Source: Haloplanus sp. GDY1 (GTDB lineage: Archaea > Halobacteriota > Halobacteria > Halobacteriales > Haloferacaceae). From it: a stretch of DNA of 64,000 nucleotides. The translations under genes and the position numbers were made by a program. This document shows positions 7,242 to 14,135 of this stretch, piece after piece; within the stretch, counting starts at the first letter, position 1, and every line of letters begins with the position of its first letter. The notes below the pieces were generated by a model, which was given only the letters and a program-made list of their open reading frames with translations, was not told where the DNA came from and did not search any database. The stretch is taken from the NCBI RefSeq assembly GCF_023703775.1, contig NZ_CP098514.1, forward strand, positions 2,267,998 through 2,331,997. Reading direction: 5' to 3'.

Positions 7242-7262
7242 ATCAGGCGACGTATCAGGCGA
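7242..7262. repeat. Tandem 11-bp direct repeat at the polB stop
   Basis: The sequence GTATCAGGCGA occurs twice, nearly back to back, around the polB termination codon (7255-7257). It is probably an incidental short duplication; no function is implied. Confidence 0.3.
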
Positions 7263-8868
7263 ACTTCCGGACCGTCAGGTCCAGGGTGTCCAGGTCGACG
7301 ATGGGCGCGAAGCCGACGTCGGGGTCGATGTTGACGCTCTCCTGGAAGGCGGTCTGTGCCTGCCAGCAGCCGCTGTTGACCGCGAGGACGTTGTGGTACT
7401 TGCCGTAGCCGAGTTTGTGGACGTGGCCGGTGTGGAAAATGTCGGGGACGTCCTCGACGACCAGGTAGTCCCGCTCCTCGGGGGCGAGTCGCATGTGGCC
7501 GCCGTACTTCGGCGCGACGTGGCGTTTCTTCAGCAGGTGGTACATCGCCCGGTGGGGGTGGTCGTAGCTCGCTTTCTCCTCCGGAAGTTCGGCGATCACC
7601 TCGTCGAGCGAGACGCCGTGATACATCAGCACCGAGACGCCCTCGACGGTGACCGTCGAGGGGTTGCCGACGATCCGCGCGTCGTGGGCACCCATGATGT
7701 CCCGGAGTTCCTCGTCGAAGCCCGGTTGGGGCTCCGCGAGGCGGACGGCGTCGTGGTTGCCCGGGATCATCACGATCTCCAGGTCGCCGGGCACCGACTT
7801 GAGGTGTTCCGAGAACCGCTCGTACTGGTCGTAGATGTCGACGATGTCGAGTTCCTCGTCCTGATCGGGGTAGACGCCCACCCCCTCGACCATGTCGCCC
7901 GCGATCAACAGGTACTCGACGGCCGACGCCTCCTCGGTGTGGAGCCAGTCGGCGAAGCGCTCCCAGGCCTCGGCCTCGAACTCCTGGCTCCCGACGTGGA
8001 TGTCGGAGACGAGCGCCGCCTGCACGTGCCGGTCGGCGGTCGACGGCCGGTACGTCCGGGGCACGTCCGGGAAGTGAAGCGAGTCGACGAAGGCGATGCC
8101 CGCGTCGTCCGAGAGCGTCCCCTCGACGGCGAGACACTCGTCGAGGAGGAGTTCGTCGACGAGGTCCGTGATCTCGCGGTCCTTCGTGACCATGAAGGGA
8201 AACGTCCCGGTCGTGTCCTCGAGTTCGACGATCCAGTGGCCGTTCGCCGAGGTGCGTATCTCGTCGACCAGCCCGATCATCGCCACGTCGCTGCCGCCCG
8301 GCATGTCGGCGATGGCGGTGGCCGGGCGGTGGTTCACCCGACCCCGGAGCTGCCCCGAGAGCTTCTCGTACCGGTCGCGAAACACCGAGACGAAGTCGGC
8401 GTACTCGCCGGTCCCGGTACTCCGGCCGGTCACGTCGCCGTCGACCTCCGGGGGCTCGGGTCGTCGCCCGGATTCACCCCCCTCCTCGGACCCCTTCGTT
8501 TCGACTGGAGAACCATTTTCCGTGATGGAACGAGACGTCGAATCGGGTGGAGTCGAAACGGTGGTGTCGGTCGTCTCGGCAGTCGGGGTGTCGGTCGTCT
8601 CGGCAGTCGGGGTCGCGTGGGACGCCGACGGCCCGGCGGACGCGGCGTCCGAGTCGTCGGCCGACGCCGACGGGTCGGCCGCGGCGAGCGCCGACCGGAC
8701 GTGGTCGGTCGTGAGACGGAGCGCGTCGTCGGGGGCCGTCTCGACGGCCGCGTCGAGGGCACTCGCCGGGTCGGTGGCGCCCGCGAGGAGCGTCACGGCC
8801 TCGCGCTCGGCGTTGTAGCCGCGACGGGCGAGTTCCCGGGCGATCCGTGCGGGCGTCTCGAGAGGCAC
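7255..8868 (-). CDS. polB: DNA polymerase D small subunit (DP1), proofreading exonuclease
   Basis: This 537-residue protein has an N-terminal helical domain (1-60). A low-complexity acidic, Thr/Ser-rich linker follows (about 65-155), including a repeated TPTAETTDT segment. An OB-fold region spans about 180-275, and a calcineurin-like phosphoesterase domain contains SDIHVGS (288-294), GDMVEG (324-329), GNHD (370-373) and GHVHKLG. PolD is the archaeal replicative polymerase; DP1 is the 3'-5' exonuclease partner of DP2, whose gene is at 55165-60273. The coding sequence contains an ORB-like element at codons 119-127. It sits 3 kb from the origin, with sec11 divergent across 99 bp. The gene is also called polD1. 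Confidence 0.95.
   Translation of the reverse strand: MPLETPARIARELARRGYNAEREAVTLLAGATDPASALDAAVETAPDDALRLTTDHVRSALAAADPSASADDSDAASAGPSASHATPTAETTDTPTAETTDTTVSTPPDSTSRSITENGSPVETKGSEEGGESGRRPEPPEVDGDVTGRSTGTGEYADFVSVFRDRYEKLSGQLRGRVNHRPATAIADMPGGSDVAMIGLVDEIRTSANGHWIVELEDTTGTFPFMVTKDREITDLVDELLLDECLAVEGTLSDDAGIAFVDSLHFPDVPRTYRPSTADRHVQAALVSDIHVGSQEFEAEAWERFADWLHTEEASAVEYLLIAGDMVEGVGVYPDQDEELDIVDIYDQYERFSEHLKSVPGDLEIVMIPGNHDAVRLAEPQPGFDEELRDIMGAHDARIVGNPSTVTVEGVSVLMYHGVSLDEVIAELPEEKASYDHPHRAMYHLLKKRHVAPKYGGHMRLAPEERDYLVVEDVPDIFHTGHVHKLGYGKYHNVLAVNSGCWQAQTAFQESVNIDPDVGFAPIVDLDTLDLTVRKFA
8489..8513 (-). other. ORB-like element inside the polB coding region
   Basis: The minus strand reads CTCCAGTCGAAACGAAGGGG, which matches the core shared by the origin ORB elements (YYGAAACGAAGGGG). 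It lies in the low-complexity linker of polB (residues VETKGSEE), where the protein sequence is poorly constrained. It is about 2.9 kb from the orc1-proximal ORB and could be an additional Orc1 binding site. Confidence 0.5.
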
Positions 8869-9814: not shown

Positions 9815-11338
9815 TCAGTTGTCGAACCGCGCCTGGACGAACGGCTGGGCGTTCTCGATGTCGCCCAGTCGGGAGTCCGAGAGCAGGACCGCCTCGGTCT
9901 CCTCGACGGGAACCGAGAGGCTGATCTCCTTGGTTCGGCCGTACCGACCCTTGCTCACGACGACGGCGTTGACGATGCCGAGCATGTCGAGTTCGGAGAT
10001 GAGGTCGGTGACGCGCCGCTGGGTGAGGACGTCGGCGTCGATCTCCTCGCACAGGCGCTTGTAGATGTTGTACACCTCGCCGGTGTTGATGTTGTGGACG
10101 CCGTTTTTCTCAAGGAGGATGATGGCAAAGAGGACGATCTTCGACTGGGTGGGGAGGGTCCGAACCACCTCGATCACCCGGTCGAGTTCGATCTTGTCCT
10201 GGGCCTGTCGGACGTGGCTCTCCTCGACGGTGTCGGCCTGACCGCGCTCGGCGAGTTCGCCGGCCGTCCGGAGGAGATCGAGCGCCCGGCGGGCGTCGCC
10301 GTGTTCCTGTGCCGCGAAGGCGGCACAGAGCGGGATGACGTCCTCGGTGAGCGCGCCGTCCTCGAAGGCCACGTCGGCGCGGTGCTGGAGGATGTCGCGC
10401 AACTGGTTGGCGTCGTACGGCGGGAAGACGATCTCCTCTTCGCCCAGGCTCGACTTGACGCGGGGGTCGAGGAAGTCGGTGAACTTCAGGTCGTTCGAGA
10501 TGCCCATGATCGAGATGCGCGAGTTGTCGAGTTCCGAGTTCATCCGGGAGAGATTGTAGAGCGTGTCGTCGCCGGACTTCTCGACGAGTTTGTCGATCTC
10601 GTCGAGCATGATGACGACCACGCGCTCGTGGTAATCGACCGCCTCGAAGAAGGAGTTGTAGACGCGGTCGGTCGGCCACCCCGTCATCGGGACGGACTCC
10701 ATCTCCTCGCGGTCGGCCTCCAGGGAGTCGACCCGGTCGTCGATCCCGTCGACGGAGTCGAAGCCGGTGTCGTCGAGGGTCCGCTCGCCGTCCGCGACCG
10801 CCGACCGCAGTGCGGAGAGGTCGTCGATCCGGTCCTCGATGACGGTCCGGTTTTTCTCGATGAACTTGTTGGCGAGCTGGGCGAGGACGCGATACTGCGT
10901 GTCCGTCACCTCGCAGTTGATGTACTCGACCTCGCAGGGAACGTCGTACTTCTGGGAGGTGGACTCCAGTTCCTTGCTGACGAACTTCGCGCTCGCGGTC
11001 TTGCCGGTCCCGGTCTTCCCGTAGATGAGGATGTTCGACGGCGTGTCGCCCCGGAGCGCGGAGACGAGGATGGTCGCCATCTGGTTGATCTGCTCGTTCC
11101 GGTGGGGGAGTTCGTGAGGGGTGTAGGAGGGACGGAGGACCTCCTTGTTCTCGAAGATGGGATCCCCGGAGAGCAGGTCGTCGAACAGTCCCTGGCTGTC
11201 GTCCTCGTCGTCGAGCACGTCGTCGATGTCGACGTCGCGGGAAATGTCGGTCGTCCGGTCCCGGGGCGAAGCGTCCAGATCGCGCTCGTCGGGGTCGACG
11301 TCCGGGCGGTCGTCGGGAGATGAGTCGTTCGCGTCCAT
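9815..11338 (-). CDS. orc1: Orc1/Cdc6 replication initiator
   Basis: This 507-residue AAA+ protein binds ORB elements and starts replication at the adjacent origin. A long acidic, probably disordered N-terminus (1-60) precedes Walker A GKTGTGKT (107-114) and Walker B MLDEID (244-249). A strongly acidic insertion lies around 165-215 between them, and arginine-finger/sensor segments follow. The winged-helix DNA-binding domain occupies about 415-495 (NGVHNINTGEVYNIYKRL, TQRRVTDLISELDMLGIV). The start is ATG 11338: an in-frame upstream extension to 11533 would cross an ORB and encodes an atypical Arg/Trp-rich head, so it was rejected. Placement beside oriC is characteristic of haloarchaea. Confidence 0.95.
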   Translation of the reverse strand: MDANDSSPDDRPDVDPDERDLDASPRDRTTDISRDVDIDDVLDDEDDSQGLFDDLLSGDPIFENKEVLRPSYTPHELPHRNEQINQMATILVSALRGDTPSNILIYGKTGTGKTASAKFVSKELESTSQKYDVPCEVEYINCEVTDTQYRVLAQLANKFIEKNRTVIEDRIDDLSALRSAVADGERTLDDTGFDSVDGIDDRVDSLEADREEMESVPMTGWPTDRVYNSFFEAVDYHERVVVIMLDEIDKLVEKSGDDTLYNLSRMNSELDNSRISIMGISNDLKFTDFLDPRVKSSLGEEEIVFPPYDANQLRDILQHRADVAFEDGALTEDVIPLCAAFAAQEHGDARRALDLLRTAGELAERGQADTVEESHVRQAQDKIELDRVIEVVRTLPTQSKIVLFAIILLEKNGVHNINTGEVYNIYKRLCEEIDADVLTQRRVTDLISELDMLGIVNAVVVSKGRYGRTKEISLSVPVEETEAVLLSDSRLGDIENAQPFVQARFDN

Positions 11339-11344
11339 TCGATG

Positions 11345-11369
11345 AAACCCCGTCGTTTCGACTGGAAGA
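11345..11369 (-). other. ORB element 1 (orc1-proximal)
   Basis: The minus strand reads CTTCCAGTCGAAACGACGGGG, the archaeal origin recognition box consensus (TTCCAGT..GAAAC..A.GGGG) with one deviation in the GAAGGGG tail. It begins 7 bp upstream of the orc1 start codon, so it may also let Orc1 repress its own gene. Confidence 0.7.
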
Positions 11370-11704
11370 CGCGCGACGGAACCGGGATAACTCGGCTGCA
11401 TCCACCACCCCCGAGGCCCTCGGCGCGTCCAGATGATCCAGCGGAAATAGAGGAACAGGTGATAGAAAAACCTTCCCCCTCGGCGGCTGCGCCACCGAAA
11501 CGTCTCCGAAGGGACACGATCTGGGGTCACCACTCGCTCCGTGATCTCCCGACGTGGTGTCGATGCGATGTGGACGCGGTGCCGCCGCGACGTCGACTGG
11601 GGCGCCGCGACGTCGACGGGGGCGCCGACGCGGTGCCGATGCGGCGGCGGACCCCCGGCGTCGAGGTGTCCGCGGCGTTGCAGGCGAAGCGGCGGGGAGG
11701 GGAA

Positions 11705-11733
11705 CCCCCCCCACCCCTTCGTTTCGGGTGGAA
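11705..11733 (-). other. ORB element 2 (left flank of the unwinding region)
   Basis: The minus strand reads GTTCCACCCGAAACGAAGGG followed by a long G-run. It is in the opposite orientation to element 3 and delimits the A+T-rich core on its left. Confidence 0.8.
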
Positions 11734-11760
11734 CGGTGAGAAGGAGGGGTGGGGGGAGGG

Positions 11761-11860
11761 AGGCTACTAGTGGAGAAAGATATAAGACCTAGCAATGGAA
11801 ATGACATCCGTAAACCAGTAGAAACTCTCTTTTCAATGGCTTCGGCTGTGGATTCTAGGG
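11761..11860. other. Putative duplex unwinding element of oriC
   Basis: This A+T-rich stretch includes GATATAAGACC and AATGGAAATGACATCC and lies between inverted ORB elements 2 and 3. In characterised archaeal origins, DNA melts in this position. Confidence 0.7.
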
Positions 11861-11914
11861 ATCGAGGCCGGACTCCACCGCGGAGATCGCCATCGTCCCC
11901 GTGCCCATCGCCCT

Positions 11915-11941
11915 CTCCACTTGAAACGAAGGGGTGGGGGG
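11915..11941 (+). other. ORB element 3 (right flank of the unwinding region)
   Basis: The plus strand reads CTCCACTTGAAACGAAGGGG followed by TGGGGG. It shares GAAACGAAGGGGT with element 2 and is inverted relative to it, with its G-run pointing away from the A+T-rich core. Confidence 0.8.
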
Positions 11942-12148
11942 CAGGGACAGGGGGACCGCCGATCCCCGACGGCCGGGCCCGCCGACAGCCGGGCCCCTCG
12001 ACAGCCGGGCCGGTCCGTCCGGACATACGACACGACCGAAACGTGACACGACGGGCCGAGTTCCGGGGCGTTCCGGACTCGGTCCGCTCCCCACGGCCCG
12101 TCCGTACGCCGGACGCTACTGACAGGTCGGTTATGGTTGTCTGACGCA

Positions 12149-12158
12149 CACTTAAGTG
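12149..12158 (+). promoter_or_regulatory. Putative promoter of the origin-linked GTPase operon
   Basis: The palindrome CACTTAAGTG contains the only TATA-like hexamer near the operon start. A start site about 27 bp downstream would leave a leader of roughly 45 nt. That leader carries Shine-Dalgarno-like GGGAGG (near 12206) and GGGAGGAT (near 12215), just before ATG 12225. Confidence 0.4.
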
Positions 12159-12224
12159 AACGCGGCGACCTTCATCGCGCATACGCCCTCTCGCGGCGAT
12201 AGACGGGAGGTGCGGGAGGATAGG

Positions 12225-12866
12225 ATGGGACTGCTCACAGGACTCAGAGACAGCATCACACGCGTCACGGAACGACTGTTCTCGGCCAGCGACCCCAAGC
12301 GGATCGGGATCTACGGCCCCCCGAACGCGGGGAAGACGACGCTCGCGAACCGGATCGCCCGCGACTGGACGGGCGACGCCATCGGTCCGGAGAGTCACGT
12401 ACCCCACGAGACCCGTCGGGCGCGCCGGAAGGAGAACGTCGAAATCGAACGCAACGGTCGCACCGTCACCATCGACATCGTCGACACGCCCGGCGTCACC
12501 ACGAAGGTCGACTACAAGGAGTTCCTCGAACACGACATCGAGGAGGAGGACGCGGTCCGTCGCTCCCGCGAAGCCACCGAGGGGGTCGCCGAGGCGATGC
12601 ACTGGCTTCGCGAGGACGTCGACGGCGTCATCTACGTCCTCGACAGCACGGAGGATCCGTTCACCCAGGTGAACACGATGCTCATCGGGATCATCGAGAG
12701 CCAGGACCTCCCGGTGCTCATCTTCGCGAACAAGACCGACCTCGACGACGCCAACGTCAAGCGCATCGAGAACGCCTTCCCGCAACACGAGACGGTCCCC
12801 CTCTCGGCGCTCGAAGGCGACAACATGGACGAAGTGTACGACAAGATCGCGGAGTACTTCGGGTGA
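12225..12866 (+). CDS. Origin-associated Era-like GTPase (Oap operon)
   Basis: This 213-residue TRAFAC-class GTPase has G1 GPPNAGKT (31-38), G3 DTPG (87-90), G4 NKTD (169-172) and G5 SAL (194-196). A short amphipathic N-terminal helix (LLTGLRDSITRVTERLF) precedes the G domain. There is no KH or other RNA-binding domain, unlike bacterial Era. It is the first gene of a three-gene overlapping operon next to oriC; haloarchaeal annotations call these origin-associated proteins (Oap). The exact role is not established; a link to replication rests on position. The start at ATG 12225 is supported by a strong Shine-Dalgarno sequence, although an in-frame ATG exists 23 codons upstream. Confidence 0.88.
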   Translation: MGLLTGLRDSITRVTERLFSASDPKRIGIYGPPNAGKTTLANRIARDWTGDAIGPESHVPHETRRARRKENVEIERNGRTVTIDIVDTPGVTTKVDYKEFLEHDIEEEDAVRRSREATEGVAEAMHWLREDVDGVIYVLDSTEDPFTQVNTMLIGIIESQDLPVLIFANKTDLDDANVKRIENAFPQHETVPLSALEGDNMDEVYDKIAEYFG

Positions 12867-13261
12867 TGGAGATGCCTGAAGCCACTCCCGACGTCGACGA
12901 CGACGGCGTTCAGATCGACCTCATCAGCGGCGCGCGGATGGAGGACCTCGCGAGCATGGAGAAGATCCGGCTCATCCTCGACGGGGTCCGCGAGGGCAAC
13001 ATCGTCATCCTCGAGGAGGGGCTCACCCCCGACGAGGAGTCGAAGCTCATCGAGGTGACGATGACCGAGATCAGCCCCGACGAGTTCAACGGCATCGAAA
13101 TCGAGACGTACCCTCGATCCGAGACCGCGGACCGGAGCTTCCTCGACCGACTGATGGGTCGCGAGTCGACGAAGAAACTCACCGTCATCGGCCCGGCCAA
13201 CCAGATCCAGACGCTCCACAAGGACGAGAACCTCATCAGCGCGCTCGTCTCCCGAAAGTAA
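12866..13261 (+). CDS. DUF2073 family protein (Oap operon)
   Basis: This 131-residue protein contains the conserved archaeal DUF2073 pattern: VQIDLISGARME near the start, LDGVREGNIVILEEGLTPDEES in the middle, and KKLTVIGPANQIQTLHKDENLISALV at the end. The function is unknown. It is nearly always the gene after this GTPase in archaea, suggesting that the two products act together. The ATG at 12866 overlaps the GTPase stop (TGATG); a GTG one codon earlier is an alternative. The stop overlaps the next start as TAATG. Confidence 0.88.
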   Translation: MEMPEATPDVDDDGVQIDLISGARMEDLASMEKIRLILDGVREGNIVILEEGLTPDEESKLIEVTMTEISPDEFNGIEIETYPRSETADRSFLDRLMGRESTKKLTVIGPANQIQTLHKDENLISALVSRK

Positions 13262-13968
13262 TGCCCCACCAGTGTACGAACTGCGAGCGGACCTTCCCCG
13301 ACGGCTCCAAGGAGATGCTCTCGGGGTGTCCCGACTGCGGCGGGAACAAGTTCCAGTTCAAGCCGGACTCCGCGACGGAGACGCCGACCCTCGGCGACGA
13401 CGGGGGTAGCGACGACGCGGGGTCGAGTCCGAACGTCTCGCAGTCGGTCGACGCGCCGTCGGCGTCGACCGATCCGCCGTCGACGCCCGCCGATCCGCCC
13501 GCCGGATCACCGTCGACTCCCGCGGCGGACCCGCCCGTCGGCTCCGACTCCGACTCCGACTCGGATCCCGAGACGACCGCGGCCGACGCCACGGAGTCCC
13601 CCGGATCCGACGGCGACTTCATCGAGGCCGAGTCGGACCCCAGCGTCCTCGGGGAGGACACCGCCCAGGCGGACGCCCGCCGCGACGTGGTCACTCCCGA
13701 CGAACTCGACGACGCGTCCTCCTCCCCGCCCCCCGGATCCGACGACGCGGCACACGCCGTCCCCCCCGACTCGGCGGCCTCCCCGGGTATCGACGACCTC
13801 CGGGCGGAACTCAACGACCAGTTCGAGAGCATCAAGATCCTCGAACCCGGTCAGTACGAACTCAACCTGATGGAGCTGTACGACCGACAGGAGTGCATCA
13901 TCTCGCTGCAGGAGGACGGCCACTACGTCATCGAGGTGGCCGACACCTGGCGCGACGACGAGTCGTAG
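13261..13968 (+). CDS. Zn-ribbon protein OapC-like (Oap operon)
   Basis: This 235-residue protein has an N-terminal zinc ribbon with CTNC at 5-8 and CPDC at 23-26. A long disordered acidic Ser/Pro/Asp-rich middle (about 38-175) includes SDSDSDSD-type repeats. A conserved C-terminal module (about 178-230: IDDLRAELNDQFESIKILEPG, YELNLMELYDR) looks helical then beta. Third gene of the origin-linked operon, overlapping the DUF2073 gene by one base. The Zn ribbon may bind nucleic acid or protein, and the linker tethers it to the C-terminal domain. The function is inferred from position only. Confidence 0.85.
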   Translation: MPHQCTNCERTFPDGSKEMLSGCPDCGGNKFQFKPDSATETPTLGDDGGSDDAGSSPNVSQSVDAPSASTDPPSTPADPPAGSPSTPAADPPVGSDSDSDSDPETTAADATESPGSDGDFIEAESDPSVLGEDTAQADARRDVVTPDELDDASSSPPPGSDDAAHAVPPDSAASPGIDDLRAELNDQFESIKILEPGQYELNLMELYDRQECIISLQEDGHYVIEVADTWRDDES

Positions 13969-14110: not shown

Positions 14111-14135
14111 GACCCCTTCCTTTCAACTCCAATTC
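14111..14135 (-). other. ORB-like element downstream of the Oap operon
   Basis: The minus strand reads GGAGTTGAAAGGAAGGGGTC. Fourteen of the 15 bases TTGAAACGAAGGGGT of origin ORB 3 are conserved. It is about 2.2 kb from the origin core and in the same orientation as ORBs 1 and 2. Confidence 0.45.

Follow-up and report, generated by a model that had tools for sequence, protein, structure and literature searches.

The oriC1 origins described in Haloarcula hispanica, Haloferax volcanii, and Halobacterium NRC-1 consist of inverted origin recognition boxes (ORBs), extended by a halophile-specific G-string, around an A+T-rich core. They lie upstream of orc1, beyond which come sec and dp1, and are flanked on their opposite side by the GTPase gene oapA (PMC3528665, PMC3936714, PMC4010727). 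The oriC1 of Haloarcula hispanica requires the extended G-string (PMC3936714). Binding of Orc1, opening, and loading of MCM are the established course at archaeal Orc1/Cdc6 origins, while control of initiation at the main archaeal origin has been called a major challenge (PMC3936714). Here, we analyzed a 64,000-nucleotide stretch of the chromosome of Haloplanus sp. GDY1 (contig NZ_CP098514.1; hereafter, the window), in which the region between orc1 and oapA is almost certainly oriC1, the conserved Orc1-dependent main chromosomal origin, and in which a further ORB-type box lies inside dp1. We identify the region as oriC1 because gene context (Orc1, with OapB and OapC recognized by Pfam), box architecture, the state of 78 of 78 comparable loci, and a GC-skew extremum at the site all agree, which bears out the main-origin claim of a first-pass annotation of the sequence. 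The origin is a further example of a known system, its layout being textbook for haloarchaea; what this locus adds is the box within dp1.

The boxes and associated elements of the window are the following:

11707-11733, reverse strand: left origin ORB with extended G-string (TTCCACCCGAAACGAAGGGGTGGGGGG), G-run pointing away from the core; 39.3 bits (21-nucleotide core)
11915-11941, forward strand: right origin ORB with extended G-string (CTCCACTTGAAACGAAGGGGTGGGGGG); 36.5 bits
11763-11862, no strand: A+T-rich core, candidate duplex-unwinding element, 58% A+T
11744-11763, forward strand: G-rich tract just inside the left ORB, by comparison with PMC3936714 a candidate half of a G-rich enhancer repeat whose right half is poorly preserved
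11954, no strand: maximum of the cumulative GC skew of the 64-kb window, at the right ORB
11347-11367, reverse strand: third ORB, a candidate operator for autoregulation in the leader of orc1, lacking the extended G-string; 28.5 bits
8490-8510, reverse strand: fourth ORB, intragenic in dp1 (CTCCAGTCGAAACGAAGGGGT), encoding SPVETKGS; 35.5 bits
8547-8567, forward strand: degenerate partner of the dp1 box, set at the 57-bp distance that is conserved; scores -6.8 bits in this genome but is intact in other genera

Exact matches to the 12-mer GAAACGANGGGG are present at 11348-11359 (reverse), 11714-11725 (reverse), and 11923-11934 (forward), the three ORB-type elements in which the first-pass annotation had seen a shared motif, and also at 8491-8502 (reverse), the dp1 box, which was absent from its list. 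The origin pair forms 26-nucleotide inverted arms (11707-11732 and 11916-11941) that are 92% complementary and 183 nucleotides apart, with the G-runs directed outward as had been claimed, and both arms continue outward into GGGGTGGGGGG, the extended halophile-specific G-string. The A+T-rich core proposed between them is likewise present, with 58 of 100 bases A or T at 11763-11862, a level reached by only 0.15% of the window's 100-nucleotide stretches. Across the whole genome (3.44 Mb; 3,435,985 bases in four contigs, with a chromosome of 3.01 Mb), GAAACGANGGGG has five exact matches, four of them within 3.4 kb in the origin neighborhood, and all four exact matches to YTCCANNHGAAACGANGGGG, the 12-mer joined to the upstream half of the box, fall in the same neighborhood; the clustering of boxes here is thus not a product of chance. 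The box matrix gave no match of at least 10 bits in 1.2 Mb of the remaining chromosome.

We compared the region with 78 haloarchaeal loci, comprising that of the window and those of named records, each with 1 kb or more of sequence preceding orc1, using a matrix trained on the origin boxes of the same loci. An inverted ORB pair was detected in all 78, with a spacing of 179-277 bp (median 208.5), and the A+T-rich stretch inside the pair reached a mean maximum of 66% versus a locus mean of 35%. GC skew was compared between the window and 60 sampled chromosome stretches of 20 kb (40% of the chromosome). Skew per base in the window is +0.044 to the left of position 11,954 and -0.038 to the right, and the switch at the origin ranked first of the 60 chromosome samples for every span tested (permutation p = 0.0024 for the range of the cumulative curve over these samples). 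The extremum that a genome-wide skew check had been predicted to give at this site was therefore found, on a 40% sample. Since it is a maximum, the strands leaving the origin are C-rich, and the sign of the skew is opposite to that at the origin of Escherichia coli.

The box inside dp1 lies in the reading frame, in the part coding for the variable linker before the OB fold. We surveyed 62 dp1 genes, from the window and the named loci, with a matrix built from origin boxes only and a cut-off of 14 bits, and 56 carried a box at or above it. Chance can be ruled out as the source of these matches, as 30 column-shuffled matrices matched nothing in 1.04 Mb, versus 432 matches for the real matrix. 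The box occurs in several haloarchaeal families, always in the same reading phase, and is strong (at least 29 bits) in 12 of 12 Haloplanus genomes. Several Haloferax have weakly scoring dp1 boxes, and no box was detected in the linker at the dp1 loci of outgroups belonging to the phylum's other classes. TCCA, GAAAC, GGGG, and the final T are near-invariant in 44 dp1 boxes, matching the invariant positions of the origin ORBs. Two boxes inverted in the origin-like sense are found in 20 dp1 genes, with a spacing of 57 bp in 16 and of 69, 72, or 75 bp in the others. The box is kept where dp1 has moved 16-58 kb away (genomes G013, G038, G057, G020, and G033); one genus whose dp1 lies at least 148 kb away or on a different contig has lost it, and in a second genus, where dp1 is inverted at a distance of 9 kb, it is weak or lost. 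A rule that the box requires a place beside oriC1 fails on the boxes kept at 16-58 kb; nearness to oriC1 is not strictly required, on a small number of independent moves.

A box within a coding sequence could simply reflect a conserved peptide, here SPVETKGS, or an mRNA hairpin instead of an Orc1 site, as its constant reading phase and the peptide's being recognizable in many genera would lead one to expect. However, all 76 dp1 boxes chosen by score outscored at least 99% of synonymous recodings with codons drawn from the same gene (mean z 4.1). In a score-independent codon test on the dp1 protein alignment (477 columns), the box columns were among the most codon-biased (V as GTT in 28 of 29, S as TCT in 23 of 25, P as CCA in 49 of 56, E as GAA in 51 of 52, and G as GGG in 43 of 48; median Kullback-Leibler divergence 0.16), while some of the other top columns carry no evidential value, either preceding the likely start codon, where open frames extend upstream, or being serines fixed for AGC/AGT. 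Together, these two tests led us to reject the conserved-peptide explanation. Because the box is kept by rare synonymous codons, the constraint on it, as read from these sequences, acts on the DNA and not just on the protein. A hairpin is not supported, as box letters show no covariation between the arms (16.70 within versus 16.72 between species) and, of the 44 genes whose second box is strong, 24 lack the first arm. Overall, we consider a by-product origin of the dp1 box unlikely.

It is less probable still that the dp1 box marks a second, smaller initiation site. The genes with two boxes, inverted as at the origin and mostly 57 bp apart, are what such a site might look like, but the spacer is not A+T-rich (37% versus 34% for the gene), the extended G-string is mostly absent, and many species, Haloplanus sp. 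GDY1 included, have only one good box. The number of G residues in the six nucleotides after GGGGT comes to 5.5 at origin boxes, 0.8 at leader boxes, and 2.1 at dp1 boxes. A natural reading is that there are two classes of box, those with the G-string serving firing and those without it being presumably regulatory. With a spacer that is not A+T-rich and a short G-string, a second origin in dp1 is unsupported, and the dp1 box is most likely a satellite Orc1 site.

With regard to the origin itself, some points weigh against its identification as oriC1: the 78 of 78 count for the origin pair is partly circular given how the matrix was trained (the dp1 box count is exempt from this), the skew evidence comes from 60 sampled 20-kb stretches rather than the full chromosome, and only one half of the G-rich enhancer repeat, a feature of most but not all species, is preserved, with a tract inside the left ORB and a degenerate right half. 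An intact but dormant or rarely used origin, with the chromosome replicated mainly from elsewhere, would be in keeping with haloarchaea commonly having several origins, dormant ones among them (PMC4595724), and with the presence of a second orc gene on the chromosome, 91 kb away from oriC1 (L011, C1:2371044-2372087). Nonetheless, skew switches more strongly at the oriC1 site than anywhere else sampled on the chromosome and no origin-like inverted repeat with a G-string is evident around the second orc gene, which possibly lacks an origin of its own, making dormancy very improbable. That the boxes are solely a regulatory region of orc1 and oapA, as one box overlapping the orc1 leader might hint, is barely credible given that inverted boxes with extended G-strings enclose an A+T core, that the skew switches here, and that the layout equals that of the experimentally proven oriC1 of other haloarchaea.

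The genes around oriC1 are as follows:

9815-11338, reverse strand: orc1/cdc6 initiator gene, 507 amino acids (NF001625, 657 bits, equivalog; TIGR02928, 479 bits; Cdc6_C)
7255-8868, reverse strand: dp1, small (exonuclease) subunit of DNA polymerase D (PF04042)
12225-12866, forward strand: oapA (= arvA), origin-associated small GTPase gene, named from its position and GTPase domain
12863-13261, forward strand: oapB (PF09846)
13261-13968, forward strand: oapC (PF09845)

To the left of the origin lie orc1, the signal-peptidase-like gene sec11b (a weak signal-peptidase match, below the family cut-off), and dp1, and to the right oapA, oapB, and oapC. This neighborhood equals the published context of haloarchaeal oriC1, and OapB is present in 59 of 60 genomes of the family. 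The H. volcanii counterpart of oapA/arvA drives extracellular vesicle formation (PMC10927574); a vesicle gene is thus carried in the origin-linked operon.

A weak ORB-like site (TTGGAGTTGAAAGGAAGGGGT, 14112-14132, reverse strand, 13.8 bits) lies beyond oapC, and strong boxes are found 3-4 kb away on the oapC side in some other genera (for example, at L184 and L202). The sole exact GAAACGANGGGG match outside the origin neighborhood (C1:1138589, L001) is near a local GC-skew switch between the 1.11 and 1.16 Mb samples; the remainder of the box is missing there, and the match is probably due to chance. The orc genes on the smaller contigs C2, C3, and C4 (L006, L007, L008, and L009) have repeat families of their own, which take the form of near-perfect inverted repeats containing G-runs at L007, L008, and L009 (GTTACAACTCGAAAAAGGGGTGGGGGTGT at L009 is an example). 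These orc-adjoining repeats suggest that the smaller contigs may have separate origins with their own boxes.

Based on known families, Orc1 from the adjoining gene would bind both inverted ORBs of oriC1, its winged helix contacting the TCCA..GAAAC part and its AAA+ domain the G-string. The A+T-rich core would then melt, MCM would be loaded, and two forks would depart from the origin. Bound at the leader box, Orc1 would probably also repress its own gene. The leader 12-mer sits 9 bp upstream of the orc1 ATG (11338), not 7 bp as the first-pass annotation had it. Its suggestion of autoregulation is plausible, since a further box stands between orc1 and the inverted pair in 77 of 78 loci. At the dp1 box, more tentatively, a satellite Orc1 site may either buffer or titrate Orc1 or feed the state of the origin into dp1 expression.

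The closest precedent for the dp1 box, by analogy, would be oriC2D of Haloarcula hispanica, an ORB cluster downstream of cdc6E that has been proposed to titrate Cdc6. Both comprise ORB-type boxes past an initiator gene and outside the origin. However, oriC2D is intergenic, has 11 boxes, and is part of oriC2, whereas the dp1 box lies within a reading frame, occurs throughout the class, either alone or with a partner, and is a member of the oriC1 family of boxes. A functional analogy, drawn in PMC3936714, is with the DnaA boxes of E. coli, which lie off the origin at datA and before the initiator gene in the dnaA promoter, although initiator and boxes there are unrelated to the candidate Orc1 boxes of haloarchaea. 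No earlier report of an intragenic dp1 box was found in the open-access literature searched, subscription papers and Norais et al. 2007 being outside the search. An earlier survey would have missed the box because it was confined to intergenic sequence adjoining orc/cdc6 genes (PMC3528665). On balance, the sequence evidence inclines us to think that Orc1 binds and functions at the dp1 box as part of a class-wide control of oriC1, through Orc1 titration or a link between initiation and dp1 expression, often as a 57-bp inverted pair and at a price paid in rare codons. If Orc1 does bind there, the dp1 box would offer a tangible starting point for understanding how initiation at the main origin is regulated in archaea.
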